This document shows positions 1,966 through 12,719 of a DNA stretch of 64,000 nucleotides, piece by piece. The position numbers were made by a program, and so were the translations under genes. The number at the start of each line of letters is the position of its first letter. Positions within the stretch are counted from its first letter, which is position 1. This stretch comes from Pelagibacterium sp. 26DY04 (GTDB taxonomy: Bacteria > Pseudomonadota > Alphaproteobacteria > Rhizobiales > Devosiaceae): the NCBI RefSeq assembly GCF_031202305.1, contig NZ_CP101731.1, positions 186,001 through 250,000 on the forward strand, written 5' to 3'. Below the pieces are notes generated by a model. It was not told where the DNA came from and ran no database searches. It was given only the letters and a program-made list of their open reading frames with translations.

Positions 1966-3219
1966 TCAGGACGCGATCAGCGCCGGCGTGTCAGGGTCAT
2001 AGCCACCGTCGGGGTCGATTGGCATCCAGGCCGACAATCCTCTGCCCTTGCTGCCGCAGCAGAACTGCGCCGCAGCGCTGCCACTGGGGAAGATCAGATC
2101 ACGCATGACGGTATAGCTCTTGCCGTCAGGCGAGACGGCGAGCAGTCCTGAATGCAGCCAGGCCGAGCGCAGATACCGGACGCTGGCATTGGCCGACGCC
2201 GCGGTCCCGATGCGCACATCGGATCCGCGCAGCAACAGCCAGCGGTTCTCGGCCTGCTTGGCAGCAAGTGCGACCAGGCCATCGCCGAACGCCATCTCCA
2301 CGATCTCTCCTTCCGGGATGTCGTTGAAGGGGCGCAGGGCACCGATGCGGCCCGGCTCGCCACGCGGACCGGCCATGAGGGCACGGATGCTTCCCCCAGT
2401 GAACAGCACACCCTGGTGGCGTAATGCCAGGCACGCCTCCCCCACAAACACTTGGAGATGATCGTAACGCTCAGGGTCGACACCGTGGCCATCGGGAACG
2501 CCGTTGACCAGCGCGCGCTCGCCCGAGGCATGAACCCGCGACCACAGGATACGTTCGATTGCCCGCGCATCCTCGGGCGTCAGGGTGTCGTTGGCGTCGG
2601 TGATTGCGATGATCGTCTCGACGCCGTCGATCGGCTGCTGCCCGCCGGCAATCCGAGCCCCGAGATCGGTGCCCATGCCGACATAGGCCGAGGTGCCATT
2701 CATCAGGACATAGATACCGGGGCGCCGCAACGTGTCAGCGCGAACAAAGGCGCGCCGCTCAGAGCCAGACCCCACGACGACCACCGGCGAGAACGGATTG
2801 ACGACGAGGGCCTTGATGCCGGACGGCAGCTCGTTGCCCTTATCGGCTTCTCCCGATGGAACCTTCTCACCACAACCGCTACCGGACGGATCGGGATCGA
2901 TCTCAGGATCCGGATCGTGGGCGCGGCGGACGATGGAGTTGGCGTCGAGAACGCCCTTGATCTCAAGCACCACGATATTGAGGCGCTCCATGACGATGAC
3001 GGCACCGACGGGATCGGGATGATCGGGGAGATCGGCAATGATGTCGCCAATTGTCGCGCTGCCCGTGGCATCAATGAGCGAGAGAATGCGCACCTGAGCG
3101 GAAACGGGCACCAACTCGTGCTGGACACGGCCGTCGACAAGCGACGGCGCTTCATGCTGGAAAGAAGGGGAATAGGACTTGTCCGCCACTCCCGTGGCGG
3201 TAGAAGTAGACTTAGCCAT
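1966..3219 (-). CDS. GIY-YIG nuclease-domain protein of the mobile island
   Basis: A 417-residue protein starting at the ATG at 3219, which has GAGG 7 nt upstream; a longer in-frame start at 3309 lacks such a site. Residues about 40-90 look like a small winged-helix unit. An acidic linker rich in Asp and Pro (about 100-130) follows. Residues 160-260 carry a GIY-YIG signature: GIY at 168-170 and YVG at 179-181 with ten-residue spacing, Arg189 in the next helix (LGARI), a helix DARAIERILW with a candidate metal-binding Glu222, and Asn239. The C-terminal 150 residues are unassigned. GIY-YIG domains are usually DNA endonucleases, but activity is not proven. The gene stands alone between the AAA+ protease and the 8-bp array. 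Confidence 0.65.
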   Translation of the reverse strand: MAKSTSTATGVADKSYSPSFQHEAPSLVDGRVQHELVPVSAQVRILSLIDATGSATIGDIIADLPDHPDPVGAVIVMERLNIVVLEIKGVLDANSIVRRAHDPDPEIDPDPSGSGCGEKVPSGEADKGNELPSGIKALVVNPFSPVVVVGSGSERRAFVRADTLRRPGIYVLMNGTSAYVGMGTDLGARIAGGQQPIDGVETIIAITDANDTLTPEDARAIERILWSRVHASGERALVNGVPDGHGVDPERYDHLQVFVGEACLALRHQGVLFTGGSIRALMAGPRGEPGRIGALRPFNDIPEGEIVEMAFGDGLVALAAKQAENRWLLLRGSDVRIGTAASANASVRYLRSAWLHSGLLAVSPDGKSYTVMRDLIFPSGSAAAQFCCGSKGRGLSAWMPIDPDGGYDPDTPALIAS

Positions 3220-3528: not shown

Positions 3529-3670
3529 GCATCGCGGCATCGCGGCATCGCGGCATCGCGGCATCGCGGCATCGCGGCATCGCGGCATCGCGGCATCGCG
3601 GCATCGCGGCATCGCGGCATCGCGGCATCGCGGCATCGCGGCATCGCGGCATCGCGGCATCGCGGCATCG
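3529..3670. repeat. Perfect tandem array of an 8-bp unit GCATCGCG (17.75 copies)
   Basis: Seventeen complete copies (3529-3664) plus six bases of another run without a single mismatch. The array begins 62 bp beyond the end of the ribbon-helix-helix gene and lies 310 bp upstream of the GIY-YIG gene, in the 513-bp gap 3220-3732, where I see no gene. Because 8 is not a multiple of 3, each strand reads as the same cyclic eight-residue peptide in all three frames; the open frames over the array are therefore artefacts. The position next to parA and an RHH gene suggests a centromere-like site or iterons (inference). Slippage of a simple repeat is the alternative. Confidence 0.95.
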
Positions 3671-3732
3671 AAGATGCTGGCTATTCACGCCTGGGTGTCA
3701 AGCCGGTGATTTGGGTCGTTTGGCCGGTGTTT

Positions 3733-4020
3733 TCAGCCTTTGCGGCGCATGGCGTAGCCGGAATACCACGGCGCCAGTTCTGCGTATCCCGGACGGCCCT
3801 CGCCACGCAGATAGGTGTCGAGCAGCAGGTTGATCAGCAGGCTGACGCTCATCCCGTTCGAACGTGCGATTGCGGCGACCTCGTCTAGCACCGGCCTTGG
3901 GATTCGGCTGGACGTGCAAACGATATCAGGAGCGGCCGAACCCCCGTCATCCTGACCGGACAGCACTGCCTCTTCGATCATCTGGCTCAGACTCGGCATG
4001 TCGCTGCGATCTCCAGTCAT
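3733..4020 (-). CDS. Small ribbon-helix-helix-type protein, probable ParA partner
   Basis: 95 residues. Residues about 32-75 read like an RHH (CopG/Arc) fold: a short beta strand (IVCTSSRIP), a helix (VLDEVAAIARSNG), and a second helix beginning MSVSLLINLLLDTYL. The start codon overlaps the parA stop by 4 bp (ATGA), so the two genes are translationally coupled. Small RHH proteins paired with a ParA ATPase act as centromere-binding partners in type Ib plasmid partition (for example ParG or Omega). The DNA-binding assignment rests on pattern only. The adjacent 8-bp tandem array is the obvious candidate binding site. The first 30 residues look disordered. Confidence 0.6.
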   Translation of the reverse strand: MTGDRSDMPSLSQMIEEAVLSGQDDGGSAAPDIVCTSSRIPRPVLDEVAAIARSNGMSVSLLINLLLDTYLRGEGRPGYAELAPWYSGYAMRRKG

Positions 4021-4760
4021 TGCCCCACCCTTTCCGCATGTGCTCTGTCCACAGCCCGACCGAGCGCGGCAAAGACCCGGGCGAAGTTTTCCTTCGCTGG
4101 ATCCTCGCGCCCGATCTCGAGAACCCCGCGCCCAAAGGGATAGACGCGGCGATAGCTGGACAATTGCTGCATGGCCACCGGCAGGAACGGCCCGTATGCC
4201 TTGAACGCTGCGGCCAACTGTTTCAGCTCAGCCGTCTTCCCTCGCGTGGCTTCGTTAAAGACAGCGATGGTCGGCACATCGCGGGCCCGCGCGACACGGA
4301 TGAAGCGTCCCAGTTCCAGCAGGTCCTGATGGGCGGGCTTGACCGGAGAGACGAGGATGTCGCTGATGTCGAGGATCGTAGCCATCATCCGCTCGTCCCG
4401 ACCGGCCGTGTCGATGAGCACCACGTCATAATCACCGATATGACGGGCCACGGTGTCGATCACATCGGAAGCCGAGCAGGCGATGACTGTCGGGTTGCCA
4501 ATGTCAATGGGCCGGGGCCATTTCCTGAGCGTGCCCTGCTCCCCGTCCGCATCGACGATGAGCACCTTCCTTCTCTGCCTCGCGTAGCCGATGGCGGTGT
4601 TAAGGGTCAGGGTGGACTTCCCGCATCCTCCTTTGCTGTTGGCGACGGTGAGGACAATAACACCCTGCGTCCGGCAGAACTCGATCGCGCCGATCGCACG
4701 CGGCCTGAACGCGACAGGAACAGCACCGGGTGGGCGAAAACTGTGGAGATTGGGACGCAT
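4017..4760 (-). CDS. parA: ParA-family partition ATPase
   Basis: 247 residues. The deviant Walker A KGGCGKST lies at 43-50 and is followed by VDADGEQGTLRKW and a Walker B-like VVLIDTAGRDE, all typical of ParA/MinD/Soj ATPases. Such proteins use ATP-dependent nonspecific DNA binding to move and segregate plasmids or integrative elements. The protein is short and lacks the N-terminal helix-turn-helix of type Ia ParA, which fits a type Ib system with an RHH partner encoded directly downstream (4-bp overlap). The start is the ATG at 4760; the ribosome-binding site is weak. It is divergent from the MarR-like gene across an 80-bp region with a palindrome. Confidence 0.85.
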   Translation of the reverse strand: MRPNLHSFRPPGAVPVAFRPRAIGAIEFCRTQGVIVLTVANSKGGCGKSTLTLNTAIGYARQRRKVLIVDADGEQGTLRKWPRPIDIGNPTVIACSASDVIDTVARHIGDYDVVLIDTAGRDERMMATILDISDILVSPVKPAHQDLLELGRFIRVARARDVPTIAVFNEATRGKTAELKQLAAAFKAYGPFLPVAMQQLSSYRRVYPFGRGVLEIGREDPAKENFARVFAALGRAVDRAHAERVGQ

Positions 4761-4788: not shown

Positions 4789-4801
4789 CGATATAATATC
4801 G
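4789..4801. promoter_or_regulatory. Palindrome overlapping a TATAAT box between parA and the MarR gene
   Basis: CGATAT-A-ATATCG is a perfect 6+1+6 inverted repeat. It contains TATAAT, which fits a -10 element reading toward the MarR gene 40 bp away. It sits in the 80-bp divergent intergenic region, where a MarR dimer operator would be expected. Both the promoter and the operator role are inferred. Confidence 0.45.
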
Positions 4802-4840
4802 GTATTGCTTGCGAGAGAGTCAAGCCGCACCGGTTCATCA

Positions 4841-5269
4841 ATGTTCTTCTTTTTTCTCGGCGCCCGTGAAACGCTGGACAGCCCCCAACTCGAGCGGTTC
4901 GCCCGCGCGCTGGAATTTATTCAAAGCCGCTATCCCAACATGACGCTGGGCATGCTTTCGACTCTGTTTGCCATCGGCATGGCGCCGACGCACGAGGGTG
5001 CGTTGATCTCGATGTCCGATCTTGTGGAGCACCTCCCGGATCAAAAATACTCGACGGTTGCGCGGCAACTCGAACTGCTCGGCGAGGGCAATGGCCGGAA
5101 AGCTGGGATGGGCCTTATCGAAAAGCGCCAAGATCCCGACGATCGGCGCACGCGTTATGTGGCGCTCTCGGAGGGCGGCCGGCACTTGCTCTACGAGCTC
5201 GATTCCGTTCTCGCCCCGGACCTGTTTGGTGGAAGGGGCAAGAATGTCCCGCAAATCGAGAACGATTGA
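4841..5269 (+). CDS. MarR-family winged-helix regulator
   Basis: 142 residues from the ATG at 4841; a TTG 36 bp upstream is an alternative start and no strong ribosome-binding site marks either. The recognition region is MSDLVEHLPDQKYSTVARQLELL, and the wing DPDDRRTRYVALSEGGR is a very typical MarR signature. MarR proteins are dimeric repressors that often control the divergent gene and themselves. The divergent neighbour is parA-RHH, so the likely role is copy or partition control of the element. The N-terminus contains a run of phenylalanines (FFFF), which is unusual and may mean the true start lies a few codons later. It is convergent with the small gene at 5292-5615. Confidence 0.75.
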   Translation: MFFFFLGARETLDSPQLERFARALEFIQSRYPNMTLGMLSTLFAIGMAPTHEGALISMSDLVEHLPDQKYSTVARQLELLGEGNGRKAGMGLIEKRQDPDDRRTRYVALSEGGRHLLYELDSVLAPDLFGGRGKNVPQIEND

Positions 5270-5291: not shown

Positions 5292-5615
5292 CTAAGCGAT
5301 TCCTCCGTCGTCCTCGCCTGGCGCAGTCGACGCCCTCCTGGCTTCCGCCAACCAATCCCGCGCCAAAGCGACCGCGAAACGATCCCGGTCATGGGCACGG
5401 GCCTCGATCTCCTGGGTGAGGGATTCGGGATTGACTGAAGCGCTACGCGAGAGCAGTTCGAGCGTGGCGTCGGTCACGAGGCGGTAAGCGCGGGATCGGG
5501 TCTGCGCGGAGCTTTGCCGCGCCTGGCGTTCAAGCTCGTGTTTGCGGGCTGCCAGCTGCTCTTGCTGCGTGCGAATGGCCTGCAGGGCACGGAGGTTTGC
5601 AAGGAGTTCGTTCAT
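5292..5615 (-). CDS. Small coiled-coil protein coupled to the relaxase
   Basis: 107 residues, starting at the ATG at 5615 that overlaps the relaxase stop by 4 bp (ATGA). The first 50 residues are Gln/Glu/Arg-rich and helical (heptad-like LANLRALQAIRTQQEQLAARK), a probable coiled coil. The rest has the character of a small helical bundle. I do not recognise a family. Short helical proteins cotranscribed with MobA/MobL relaxases are often accessory relaxosome or mobilization proteins, and that is the best guess from context. Confidence 0.6.
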   Translation of the reverse strand: MNELLANLRALQAIRTQQEQLAARKHELERQARQSSAQTRSRAYRLVTDATLELLSRSASVNPESLTQEIEARAHDRDRFAVALARDWLAEARRASTAPGEDDGGIA

Positions 5616-7165
5616 TGCAGAACCTCCCCGCCACCAGCATGCGCATGCCTTGCGCCATCGTCTGGCGGCACCGGGTAGAGATCGTAGAATCGCGGATGCG
5701 GCCGGAACGGACGTGACAACGGCGTGCCAGGGACCGTCATTGCCTCGAGATCCTGTTCGAGGACGTGGTGCCGCCACAGATAATCTTCCTGACCCAGGGC
5801 CCTGTCGATCATGTCGAGGATGATTCCGACAGAAAGATCGTTCGGCTCCCCGGTGTAGCTGACGAGTGCCGCCACCAAGCGTTCCAGTCCCCGATTGCCC
5901 CAGGCTGCGACTTTTGCCAGCATCTCCCCACGGCTTTCCGGATCCGCCGCCCGAATCGTCTGCACGACCTCCCGGGCGGCGCGGAGCACGTTCCCCTTGC
6001 CCATGAGCTCGATCCGGGACCGCTTGCGGGCCATTCCGGAGACACTTGGCAACAGCGGCGCAGGATCGGGCGGAACCGGAATTGGCATTCCATCTGAATC
6101 GGTCAAGCCGAGATCGCGCCAGCCCTTGCGGCGGGCCAGGACATGCACGGCCCGGGCAGGGTCGGCTTGCAGCCTTCCCTCGATCAGGATCCGGTCTCCG
6201 GCATCGATCAGCACCGTCCCATCGACGACGAACGCCACGCCGACCCCTTCAACCGCCACGCGCTCGTCGATGGCGATGCCGGCACCCATGAACGCGGTCA
6301 TCGCCACTTCCACGGGGAGCGGTTTCGCACCTTGCCCCTCAGCCTGCCATGACGTCAGAACGGACATATCCTCGAACCGGGCATCGATTCCCGCCCGCAG
6401 ATCACATGCCTGTCGTTCCAACGCTTCTATTTCCGCCGTTACCTGTTCGTGCTCACGGCGCAGCGCACGCTGGCGGTCGCGCTGCGACAGCCGGGTTCCA
6501 GCGCCGGGAGCAGCGCGATCCCGCACGATCCGCCTTGGCAACCGATCCTCCTGCGGCAGGGCATTATCCCGCACGGCATTGGGCGCTGGATCGAACCGCA
6601 CATCGATGCCGCAATCCTCAGCAATGGCATTGAACAGGTCCGCCACCCGGTGCCGAACGCCCGAGCGGAACCAGACGTCAAGCTGCCGGCACTTGGCGCT
6701 GGCGAACCCCGTATTCGAGAGCGTGCGCGTCGAGATCAGCCCGTGGAGGTGATCATTAGGTTCCCCGTCGATGGCCGCTGAGCTTTCCCAATCGATTTGC
6801 ACGGCAAGTCCGATATCGGTGAAGCCGCGATAAACTCGTTCGACGAACCCCTCGATCCGTTCCGTGGGCAGTTCGCGCGGCCAACTAATATCGAAGAACC
6901 GGCCTTCCCTGGCGTCCTTCCTCTTCTCGATTTCTCCGGCGGCTTGCCAAACTGCCTCGCGCCGCCACGGGACGGGATCGACATCATCGGGCAGCAGCAG
7001 CCAGTGCCGGACATGATACACCTGCTGGCCGTTCCGGTGCTTGTCTTCCGGGACGCCCTCATGGCACTCGATCCCCATCTGATAGGTGGAACGCCCGATT
7101 GCTTTCCAGCCATCGCTGCGGGAAACGCCCCCAAAACTCACACCCGGCAACCCAACCGTTCCCAT
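5612..7165 (-). CDS. MobA/MobL-type (MobQ) relaxase
   Basis: 517 residues from the ATG at 7165 (GAGG 6 nt upstream; a GTG two codons earlier is the alternative). The N-terminal 170 residues follow the MobA/MobL plan: GRSTYQMG near 25-32 (the usual catalytic Tyr region), a segment WRREAVWQAAGEIEKRKDAREG, the strand WPRELPTERI, and the metal-binding stretch NDHLHGLISTR with His139 and His141. Relaxases nick DNA at oriT and lead single-stranded transfer. A basic region with heptads follows (about 215-265), and the remaining 250 residues are unassigned; they may be a primase-like or structural tail. The HLH spacing differs slightly from the classical HxH-H triad, so enzymatic activity is likely but not certain. 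An 11-bp inverted repeat lies directly upstream. Confidence 0.75.
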   Translation of the reverse strand: MGTVGLPGVSFGGVSRSDGWKAIGRSTYQMGIECHEGVPEDKHRNGQQVYHVRHWLLLPDDVDPVPWRREAVWQAAGEIEKRKDAREGRFFDISWPRELPTERIEGFVERVYRGFTDIGLAVQIDWESSAAIDGEPNDHLHGLISTRTLSNTGFASAKCRQLDVWFRSGVRHRVADLFNAIAEDCGIDVRFDPAPNAVRDNALPQEDRLPRRIVRDRAAPGAGTRLSQRDRQRALRREHEQVTAEIEALERQACDLRAGIDARFEDMSVLTSWQAEGQGAKPLPVEVAMTAFMGAGIAIDERVAVEGVGVAFVVDGTVLIDAGDRILIEGRLQADPARAVHVLARRKGWRDLGLTDSDGMPIPVPPDPAPLLPSVSGMARKRSRIELMGKGNVLRAAREVVQTIRAADPESRGEMLAKVAAWGNRGLERLVAALVSYTGEPNDLSVGIILDMIDRALGQEDYLWRHHVLEQDLEAMTVPGTPLSRPFRPHPRFYDLYPVPPDDGARHAHAGGGEVLQ

Positions 7166-7174
7166 CGCCACCCT

Positions 7175-7204: not shown

Positions 7205-7832
7205 CAAGGGTGCCGGAGACCTTGGAAAGTATCCAGATCACGACCACGTGAGCTGGATACTGCGATTTAGGGTGGGGCAAGCGCAGACCTCGTCTTTGTC
7301 GCTGTCCCGCCGCTGCGGCAATCGGCCGAGCAACTGGTTGCGGAGTTCAGCGCTGTTATCGGAGCACAGTGGCCAGTCGATGCCGCTCGTCGTATTGCCG
7401 TTTGGCATGTGCATGTGAGGCCCAGGCTGCAGCGCGTGACTTGCACAATCTGCAAGCGCCTGCTCCGGAAGCTTCGACTTCAGCGGACGACTTCAATTCC
7501 GGACCCGGCGCATTGAGGGAGCGACGGTCCCGCTCGCCGCAATGAAGCACCGATTGCGCCGTTATGGCTGAAACCGGTCGTAGAGGCATGAGCTGCGCCC
7601 CCCGATTCTCGGCAGGCGTCTTCCCCTGAGTCAAGTTTTTGATTTATTCTACAAAATTACGTTTGCCTTCGAAAAGAATCCATCTGACCCTTGTTGCGTG
7701 GCTGGCGGATGAAGGCGACCTCGTCCTCGTCTTTCAGCCACCCGCGAGGGTAGGTGAGGAAAATTTCCCACGCCGGTCGGCGGCCATCCCTCTGCGCGTA
7801 GGCCGTCGGCTGGCGTGGGACATCATGGTCGC
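7205..7832. other. 628-bp region without a convincing gene
   Basis: No open frame here has a good start, ribosome-binding site and protein-like composition. One plus-strand frame (about 7270-7518) reads as a protein-like segment (for example ADLVFVAVPPLRQS and a CTIC pair) but follows a stop directly and has no ATG, so it may be a decayed gene. A minus-strand stretch ending at 7657 also looks protein-like near its C-terminus (AWEIFLTYPRGWLKDEDEV). Both may be remnants. Confidence 0.4.
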
Positions 7833-8160: not shown

Positions 8161-9795
8161 ATGGCACAGAGATCTCAAAGCCATTCCGCAGACACCGTCC
8201 CGGTCCGAAAGGCGGCGCTCTATCTTCGTGTCTCGACGACCAGACAGGCCGAAGGCGAGGTCAGTATCCCCTCCCAGCGCGATCAGGCGCTTGCCTATTG
8301 CGAGCGCGAGGGACTTGCGGTGGCGGCAGAGTTTATCGAGCCCGGCCGCTCGGCCACCGACGATCGTCGCCCCGCTTTCCTCGAAATGATCGACCGGGCC
8401 TGCGGTCCCGATCATCCCTTCGACACCATCGTGGTCCATGCCTTTTCGCGTTTCTATCGCGACGGCGCAGAGATGGAACTGCTCATTCGCCGTCTGCGCA
8501 AGCATGGCGTTACCGTCGAATCGATCTCCCAACCCACCCGGGACGATGACCCCGCAGCTCAGATGTTGAGGCAAGTCATCGGCATTTTTGATGAATACAC
8601 CTCCAGGGAGAATGGGCGGCAGGTCACCCGCGCCATGAAGGAAAACGCCCGGCAGGGTTTCTGGAACGGCGCCACACCACCCTTGGGCTACACGATCATC
8701 GAAGCGGAACGCCGCGGCCAGAAGATCAAGAAGAAGCTCGGCATCGATCCTGTGGAGGCCGAAACGGTCAGGCTGATCTACCGGCTCTATATCGACGGCG
8801 ACCGCAAGACGGGCACGCCGCCACTCGGGATCAAGGAACTGGTCAAGTGGCTCAATGCTCACGGTTACACCACGCGCAAGGGTGGCGCGTTCGGCGTCGG
8901 CCCCGTCCATCACATCCTGACCAACACCGCCTATGTCGGCCAATGGCGCTACAATGTGCGCAACAAGACCACAGGCAAGAAAAGCGATCCCGCCGATGTC
9001 GTGGATGTTCCCGTGCCGCGCATCATCGACGACAAGATTTTCGAGGCGGTGCAGTCCAAACTTGCCGCCAACAATCCCAGGATCAATCCCGCACGCGCCG
9101 TGAGCGGTCCGATCCTGCTCACCGGTCTTGCCACCTGCGCCCATTGCGGTTCGGGAATGACCCAGCGCACCGGAACGTCCAGTTCGGGAAGGATCTATTC
9201 CTACTACAGCTGCGCCGGCCGGGCTCAGCGTGGCCCGACTGCCTGCAAGGGCAACTCGGTCCGTATGGATGCCCTCGATTCGAAAGTCATTGACGCCCTG
9301 CGCGAAAAACTGCTTGCGCCCGACCGCCTTGCGGCCATGCTGACCGCCTTTGCGGAGCGCCGGACCCAAAGAGCCGCGGCAATCAGCGAGCGCCTCATTG
9401 GCCTGCAGCAGGAGGCGAACGCCGCCCGGGACAAGCTCGACCGGCTCTACAAACTCGTCGAGGATGGCGCCGAGCTCGATGATGTGCTGCGCGACCGCAT
9501 TGCCATGCTTCGGGCCGACCATGAGCGTGCGAAAGCAGCGCTTGAACGTGCCCGGGTTCAGGCGGGCGATGACACCGTGATCGATCCGGCCAAAATCACG
9601 GCGTTCTCCGACCTCATGACGGGCATTCTCGATTCGGCAGAAAACCCTGCGCGCAAGGCGTGGCTGCGATCTCTTATCTCGAAGGTCGAGGTGGACGCCG
9701 ACCGTATCCGGATCGTCGGCAGCAAGGACGTGCTCAACGCCGCAGTGGCTGCTTCGGCAAATTCGGGTGAAAACGTTCAGAAATGTGTACCGGAA

Positions 9796-9825
<30 letters not shown>
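8161..9825 (+). CDS. Large serine recombinase (element integrase)
   Basis: 554 residues. The N-terminal resolvase domain has the catalytic Ser25 in YLRVSTTRQ and conserved arginines ([25 protein letters not shown]). A 'recombinase' domain follows (about 170-270, [12 protein letters not shown]). A zinc-ribbon domain (CAHCGSGM... YYSC... C, about 325-360) and a coiled coil (about 385-475) come next. This is the classical large serine integrase layout. Such enzymes join attP and attB through a Ser-DNA intermediate. The last ten codons (9796-9825) lie within the tRNA-Arg gene on the opposite strand, and the TGA stop belongs to the tRNA sequence. The C-terminus therefore depends on integration at this site. 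Confidence 0.92.
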
Positions 9826-9872
<47 letters not shown>

Positions 9873-11936: not shown

Positions 11937-12719
11937 ATGTTCAAGCTTTGCCCGCCCGCGCTTCTCCTTGCCCTGGTCGCTGTCGCGCCGGTATTGGCTC
12001 AGGACGAACCACCCCTGCCCCAGCCGCGCCCGGATGGACTGGCTAAGGCCGGGCAGGAGAGCCGGTCAAGCGGCGACGAAACGGCGCAGGAAAGCCCGGA
12101 AGACTTGGAAGTCCCCGATGAGGAGCCCGAACAAGAGCCCGAACAAGAGCCCGAACGCATCTACCAGGCGGCGTGCCCGGCATTGCTCACCGGCCGGGTG
12201 ATCGGGGAAATGGTGCCGCCGCTCGCGGAAGGCGCGTGCGGGTTGCAGAGCCCCATCGCCGTTGCCGCGCTGGTCATCAATGGACGGGAAATCCCGCTTT
12301 CGGGCACGCCGGTCACCAATTGCACCATGGCGACAACGCTTGCCGATTGGGCCGAGGAGGTGGACGCCTATGCGGGGGCGGCTCTCGATACGCACATCGA
12401 GAGCTTGTCGAGCGGGCCGGGCTATCAGTGCCGGCTGCGCAATGGCGCCGAAACGGGGTTCGTGTCCGAGCATGGTCTGGGTAATGCCGTCGACATCACC
12501 GCGATATCGTTCGCCGACGGCACCAGCCTTTCGGTGCTCGAAGATTGGGATTCGCGCTCGGTAGGCGCCGGCAGCAAATTCCTCGGCTTTGCCCATTCAG
12601 CAGCTTGCGGGCGGTTCACCACGGTTCTGGGCCCCGAGGCCAACGCCGATCACGAGGATCATTTCCACTTCGACCTCGGCTGTCACGGCCAGACCTGCAC
12701 CGCCCAGATCTGCGAGTAA
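11937..12719 (+). CDS. Extensin-like family secreted protein
   Basis: 260 residues from the ATG at 11937; an in-frame earlier start lacks a signal peptide. Residues 1-22 form a signal peptide (LCPPALLLALVAVAPVLAQ). A Pro/Glu-rich linker with QEPE repeats follows (about 55-80). The C-terminal 175 residues carry the extensin-like C domain signatures: CPALLTGRV, TNCTMA, YQCR, SEHGLGNAVDI, HSAACGRFTTVLGP and DHFHFDLGCHG. The His/Asp pattern (H-x-x-N-x-x-D and DHFHFD) resembles D-Ala-D-Ala peptidase-like zinc sites, so a cell-wall peptidase role is plausible but unproven. The protein is expected in the periplasm. Confidence 0.88.
   Translation: MFKLCPPALLLALVAVAPVLAQDEPPLPQPRPDGLAKAGQESRSSGDETAQESPEDLEVPDEEPEQEPEQEPERIYQAACPALLTGRVIGEMVPPLAEGACGLQSPIAVAALVINGREIPLSGTPVTNCTMATTLADWAEEVDAYAGAALDTHIESLSSGPGYQCRLRNGAETGFVSEHGLGNAVDITAISFADGTSLSVLEDWDSRSVGAGSKFLGFAHSAACGRFTTVLGPEANADHEDHFHFDLGCHGQTCTAQICE

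Follow-up and report, generated by a model that had tools for sequence, protein, structure and literature searches.

Perfect 8-bp tandem arrays beside ParA–RHH gene pairs as putative centromere-like sites of integrated elements in Devosiaceae

Introduction

Type Ib partition systems with short-repeat centromeres are known already (PMC5016525). For example, in the delta-omega system of plasmid pSM19035 the ribbon-helix-helix (RHH) protein ParB, Omega, binds as one dimer per 7-bp repeat, and ParA is fully activated only if four or more such repeats adjoin one another, according to the account in PMC9499535. The locus described here, from Pelagibacterium sp. 26DY04, is alike in having a ParA, an RHH protein and contiguous short non-palindromic repeats, and we propose for it the same use of one dimer per repeat and of four or more units as that account gives for pSM19035 (PMC9499535). 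In pSM19035, however, the 7-bp repeats have mixed orientations and form six promoter-overlapping sites on a plasmid (PMC9499535), whereas here a single all-direct 8-bp array follows the operon, resides on integrated elements and has units that vary between clades.

Three further systems, and one from conjugation, are of relevance. ParB of pCXC100, also an RHH protein, belongs to a type Ib system with direct repeats only in its centromere, as here; this system is plasmid borne, however, and its centromere would lie upstream of the par operon, where a general statement of the review places type Ib centromeres (PMC5016525). In ParF-ParG-parH of TP228 the partner is likewise an RHH protein (PMC5016525), and ParF (4dzz) is one of the two nearest solved relatives of the ParA in our locus, the other being the ParA 5u1g. 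SXT/R391 is an integrative element with an active partition module, srpMRC, for which a role in the excised state has been proposed and which is described as the first reported partition system stabilising an ICE family; srpMRC differs in its type II actin-like ATPase and in a centromere-like region upstream of srpM (PMC4489591). VirC1/VirC2 and overdrive of Agrobacterium also combine a ParA-like ATPase, a small partner and a specific site (PMC4949242), but the modules described here are without a conserved MobA_MobL partner.

The array and its par genes

The window, i.e., the whole stretch of DNA that was analysed (64,000 bp), comprises bases 186001–250000 of a 3.89-Mb contig. A first-pass annotation had noted an array of 17.75 perfect copies of an 8-bp unit starting 62 bp past the stop codon of the gene for a small RHH protein, and had proposed it as a candidate partition site on an integrated element. 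The array is indeed there: 142 bp of error-free copies of GCATCGCG. The module has the following features.

3529..3670, minus strand: candidate centromere, 8-bp array of 17.75 perfect copies, unit CGATGCCG along the par genes (GCATCGCG on the plus strand)
3696..3702, minus strand: CTTGACA box, the first T of TTGAC 31 bp ahead of the array
3733..4020, minus strand: RHH protein, 95 aa, candidate centromere-binding protein with Arc-like profile and fold
4017..4760, minus strand: ParA ATPase, 247 aa, Walker A motif KGGCGKST; NCBIfam ParA_partition is the best model, matched below its cut-off
4789..4823, minus strand: promoter-like site of the par operon, TTGACT-17-GATATT (4795–4823), from a promoter scan, with the overlapping near-palindrome CGATAT-A-ATATCG
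4805..5269, plus strand: divergent transcriptional regulator (phrog_9665), in a region conserved beside parA in clade A (see below)

The RHH gene and parA overlap by 4 bp. In ParA the deviant Walker A motif begins about 43 residues into the protein and no model matched an N-terminal HTH domain, as is characteristic of the small ParA proteins of type Ib. The adjoining RHH partner also agrees with type Ib in its apparently flexible N-terminus, the N-terminal segments being of low pLDDT. That the small protein has an Arc-like RHH fold is moderately supported by profile matches and by a structure model with a mean pLDDT of 77, in which the strand region is below 50. What counts against a type Ib reading is that the array lies downstream of the operon and that the par promoter region contains no 8-mer unit at up to two mismatches per 16-mer, as compared with the upstream centromeres in the account of PMC5016525. 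It should be noted, however, that type Ib systems usually have an upstream centromere but are not strictly defined by it, and the module is therefore classed as a type Ib variant.

Relatives of the module

Loci and genomes are denoted by L and G, respectively, followed by a number. Among 136 genomes of the family, this ParA (E 1e-25 or better) was found in four, and the identical four are those in which the 8-mer is repeated exactly, in tandem, four times or more. In the genome of the window a whole-genome pattern search yielded one other array only, at about 498.8 kb on the opposite strand, which belongs to a second module with 28.5 perfect copies of the GCATCGCG unit, a parA with 91% and an RHH gene with 84% amino acid identity. 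In the five modules of this clade (clade A) there are 28.5, 17.75, 16.4, 9.1 and 7.0 perfect copies of one identical unit, and the expectation that related elements would have the array next to this gene pair thus holds for all five. The ParA proteins of clade A are down to 51% identical to the window copy, and their dS is saturated, at 1.83–2.55, when Pelagibacterium copies are compared with Devosia copies. At a dN/dS of 0.11–0.24 for ParA (all pairs) and of 0.15–0.31 for RHH (pairs with computable dS) both proteins are under purifying selection. Since ParA is saturated in dS and the unit is nevertheless identical at eight positions, it is hardly plausible that the unit is unconstrained. Homology between the clade-A copies stops at the far side of the array, beyond which sequence is shared again only between the two copies of this genome (window 2144–1286). 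The array is therefore the last conserved part of the module.

The same layout is found with other letters. Among 78 more distant ParA loci, one from Devosia faecipullorum combines parA and a gene for an RHH-like protein of 118 aa with an array of CATGGCCT, in 8.6 perfect copies. A search of the family with this ParA led to 13 places in 12 genomes, nine of them with arrays; two of the nine are clade A and had been counted before, which leaves seven new parA-RHH-array modules, namely two loci with CATGGCCT (clade B), three with TCCGTGGG and two with TCCACGGG (both clade C). The remaining four places (L143–L146) are without array and were left out of the module count: L143 and L144 have a small gene after parA that, judged by eye, is not close to those of clades A–C, and in L145 and L146 a partner of this kind was not recognised beside parA. 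L036 and L138 are one locus, counted once; the copy numbers of L140 (array at the contig end) and L141 (gap within the array) are lower bounds; and in L142 and L149 the outer array copies are imperfect (TRF matches of 98% and 88%).

In all 12 modules of the three clades the order is parA, RHH gene, 8-bp array, so that an adjacent short-repeat array tied to the protein family, as in type Ib, is a constant feature, with one unit in clade A, one in clade B and two in clade C. The unit is identical within clades A and B and changes between clades, and the period is always 8 bp. Centromere repeats of pCXC100 are 9 bp long. The first-pass annotation would have been contradicted by relatives with the same gene pair and no short repeat beside it, a case which did not occur among the modules of clades A–C; instead, all seven modules of the two more distant clades have 8-bp arrays of other units. 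Given the recurrence of the array in related elements with the same layout and with lineage-specific letters, it is very probably a landing site of the RHH protein rather than random stutter. None of the 12 arrays has a longest perfect run below 32 bp, i.e., four units. Every array thus has at least the four contiguous units that ParB of pSM19035 needs for full ParA activation, which agrees with a contiguous RHH scaffold, and such a scaffold would be a reason for the arrays staying perfect.

For the RHH proteins of clades A–C an alignment can be made over the strand and over a C-terminal region, G-R-P-G...Y. In Arc, residues 9, 11 and 13 of the strand read the DNA. At these positions, in a register taken from the profile-match ranges, clade A has C/R-S-R, clade B D-T-R and clade C E-R-R. 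This does not mean that there is a strict recognition code. Indeed, in the clade-C pair L141 and L150 the ParA proteins are identical in 229 of 239 residues (96%), the RHH proteins in 75 of 98, and the strand VREVRIRLP is the same, yet the units differ at two bases, the central dinucleotide (TCCGTGGG, TCCACGGG). Protein and unit are therefore not paired one-to-one. The constant TCC-NN-GGG of the two units may hint at the bases that are read by the candidate RHH binder.

The TTGAC box

Ahead of the array, TTGA starts at a distance of 25–34 bp in 12 of the 12 modules and is followed by C in 11 and by T in one. If positions in these loci are drawn at random, TTGAC is found at such a distance with a frequency of 0.012; the count is better taken as approximately 8–9 independent cases because the three Pelagibacterium copies, and also the pair L141/L150, are close. 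The box could be the −35 element of a promoter running into the array. The array would then be an operator at which the RHH protein represses this promoter, ParA being incidental or co-regulated, and it is in favour of such a role that the RHH-bound heptads of pSM19035 overlap promoters, as stated in PMC9499535. We nevertheless consider the operator unlikely. A −10-like hexamer after the box is not conserved across the 12 loci, and the promoter scan of the window reports none there; the par promoter-like site sits elsewhere. Sequence past the array is available for 11 loci, and in seven or eight of these the gene that comes next has the opposite orientation (mechanical gene calls, omitting ORFs that overlap the array); in the window, L154 and L157 it is on the same strand. 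With homology ending at the array, there is no conserved gene behind it that could be regulated.

Element setting

The first-pass annotation had placed the array on an integrated element, and this setting is supported by a recombinase gene beside a tRNA gene and by a relaxase gene.

5612..7171, minus strand: MobA_MobL relaxase, over the Pfam cut-off; NCBIfam MobQ matches below its cut-off
8161..9825, plus strand: large serine recombinase that probably integrates the element; CcrB/CcrC, the closest named models, match it far below cut-off
9796..9872, minus strand: tRNA-Arg(ccg), which overlaps the recombinase gene at its end and probably marks where the element is attached

A tRNA gene overlapping the recombinase gene (or an ORF that takes its position), or within approximately 120 bp of it, is present at 10 of the 12 loci and was not found near the recombinase at L023 and L154. 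A large serine recombinase is encoded in the window and in L017, L156 and L158 (Pfam), proteins with similar N-termini in L153, L157 and L159, and a tyrosine recombinase in L023–L025; L154 shows a weak integrase-family match only. With serine and tyrosine recombinases beside the modules, it seems that integration backbones have exchanged the module. In the flanks examined neither the far element end nor a direct att repeat of the tRNA end was found, and among the genes scanned on the elements no replication gene was recognised. No empty site was found: the flanking genes of G083 are not together in G073, for example, and what G125 shares with the right flank of G120 is a block of 4.4 kb (99.9%) and not an empty site. 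This block (L023:10686–15097, L027) includes an aldehyde dehydrogenase and a sigma-54 regulator and starts about 170 bp past the array of G120; the two genomes are of the same genus as the window and the block is probably a recent transfer.

In seven of the 12 loci a conserved AT-rich motif, TTTTTGATTTATTCTACAAAATTACGTTTGCC (window 7636–7668), separates the serine recombinase from the remainder of the element; it is a candidate for an origin or a recombination-directing site. Adjoining this motif near the recombinase, three of the five clade-C loci have a short and degenerate second array of clade-C-like 8-mers, as follows.

L156:13410–13448: second degenerate array
L157:7662–7683: second degenerate array
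L159:13199–13227: second degenerate array

Past the array of the window there are genes on the minus strand at 1–1881 and 1966–3219; one gene past the array encodes an AAA and peptidase M41 (FtsH-like) protein, with matches to IetA defence models as well, and one encodes a protein that matches the candidate defence model PDC-S14 and, below cut-off, DUF4357. In clade B, one element includes a ThsB-like (Thoeris) gene (L154:1116–1601). The element may thus carry defence cargo.

MobA_MobL relaxases are found beside both arrays of this genome and in L158. This would suit an overdrive-like relaxosome site, at which a VirC1-like ParA and a VirC2-like RHH protein would guide relaxase and transfer strand to the secretion channel. 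VirC2 is an RHH protein, and Ri plasmids carry 8-bp overdrive repeats. VirC1 acts together with VirC2 and binds overdrive beside the T-border (PMC4949242). However, the weak matches of the VirC1 model to ParA are below cut-off and rank below ParA_partition, and in the whole clade-A genomes G120, G044 and G083 a search with the MobA_MobL model gave no match (0/3) though the array is intact. An overdrive-like function seems quite improbable.

Searches beyond the family

ParA loci of other Rhizobiales families are without array (0/29; longest exact lag run 19). These 29 control loci were fetched from the best-scoring places, 168 of 397 genomes having a match, and an RHH partner is not established for all of them. 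Arrays are thus not a general property of ParA neighbourhoods. In samples of 397 genomes of the order and 385 of the class the clade-A ParA had no match besides this genome. A profile of the RHH protein gave 45 protein-database matches, known ones included and many from contigs of only a few kb; 33 of the 45 were taken into the RHH alignment. In viral contigs there are four distant ParA loci, but neither an exact three-copy array of the GCATCGCG unit nor an RHH relative was found.

Among 72,556 plasmid records there is no relative of the module by blastn of the locus or by tblastn of three RHH proteins, one per clade; the ParA matches in plasmids are all below 60% identity, and at most 35.5% among the 40 matches listed. 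This bears on the reading that the module is an incompatibility or anti-plasmid device, in which the array or ParA disturbs the partition of other replicons. Precedents are ParI of a Pseudomonas putida island, as described in PMC9178275, and the parS sites of SGI1, as described in PMC10954446. With none of these plasmids encoding a relative of the three RHH proteins tried, and with the island having its own ParA and RHH protein, each under purifying selection, we regard such a device as very improbable.

Downstream of ParA, lag runs of at least 24 were found in seven of 80 loci. Three of them (L034–L036) have an RHH gene, and the other four, from the 78 distant loci, have perfect 7-bp arrays after a chromosomal ParA with no RHH partner recognised.

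L047, L053 and L069: Alcanivorax or Alcanivoracaceae, 7-bp unit GTAGCTT
L074: Tahibacter, 7-bp unit TTCGGGA

In L047 perfect 7-bp arrays lie at 8334–8388 and 12361–12457. The unit TTTCGAG also occurs among the arrays of these genomes, of which some lie just after the ParA-like gene, and L047 and L097 show lag runs of at least 24 in control windows, too. As 17 of 20 loci of the Alcanivorax group are without a 7-bp array, we read the arrays there as plain microsatellites. A perfect short array alone is thus weak evidence, and the case for a centromere is built on conserved place, period and unit.

That the 8-bp array is itself a functionless, slippage-homogenised microsatellite is extremely improbable, for although most arrays are internally perfect, the copy number varies within clade A and perfect 7-bp arrays lie near other ParA genes without recognised RHH partner, this is largely contradicted by a unit that is identical across saturated divergence, by the fixed position and constant period in three clades, and by the exact co-occurrence with ParA in the genomes of the family. 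Between relatives a neutral microsatellite should drift in unit and place, whereas the unit is fixed in clade A and the place is kept in 12 of 12 modules. Slippage, which the first-pass annotation had named as the alternative, holds in part as a mechanism, since the arrays of clade A (7.0–28.5 copies) do expand and contract, but neutral slippage is a poor account of a unit that has been kept.

Conclusions

We conclude, with a probability of roughly 0.7, that the array is a centromere-like site of a type-Ib-like ParA-RHH partition module on chromosomally integrated elements and would serve the excised element. The conserved layout in relatives supports the partition-site reading that the first-pass annotation had put forward for the array beside the RHH/ParA pair. 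RHH dimers would cover the 8-bp repeats without gaps, each unit taking one dimer; the assembly of RHH protein and array would engage nucleoid-bound ParA and stimulate its ATPase; and excised or newly transferred copies of the element would be held to the nucleoid and then segregated. What is observed directly is the array itself, that it always follows the RHH gene with a period of 8 bp, that its unit is kept within clades A and B and differs between clades, and the element context. The need for partition is not self-evident, since the elements are integrated, no rep gene was recognised among the genes scanned and the plasmids gave no match to the one RHH protein tried per clade.

More tentatively, and with somewhat less than even odds, the 8-bp array and the TTGAC box may be a mobile centromere of Devosiaceae elements whose letters change with the DNA-reading strand of the RHH protein, so that there would be orthogonal RHH-centromere pairs (three clades, four units) on integrated or excised islands and not on plasmids. 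The modules differ from the known type Ib systems in that one all-direct 8-bp array follows the operon, in the turnover of the unit at a fixed period, in the TTGAC box and in the residence on integrated elements, no plasmid relative of the RHH proteins having been found; the wider module family, the unit turnover and the TTGAC box also go beyond the earlier annotation. Among the titles listed in searches of the open-licence literature we found none describing such a module.

If this interpretation is true, integrated elements gain a ParA-RHH partition module. Nature would then have supplied a series of modules with a fixed 8-bp spacing, across which the letters of a protein family vary along with those of its tandem DNA site. 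With this series, RHH recognition, the smallest number of adjoining sites required and the partition of excised islands are directly testable in harmless bacteria.
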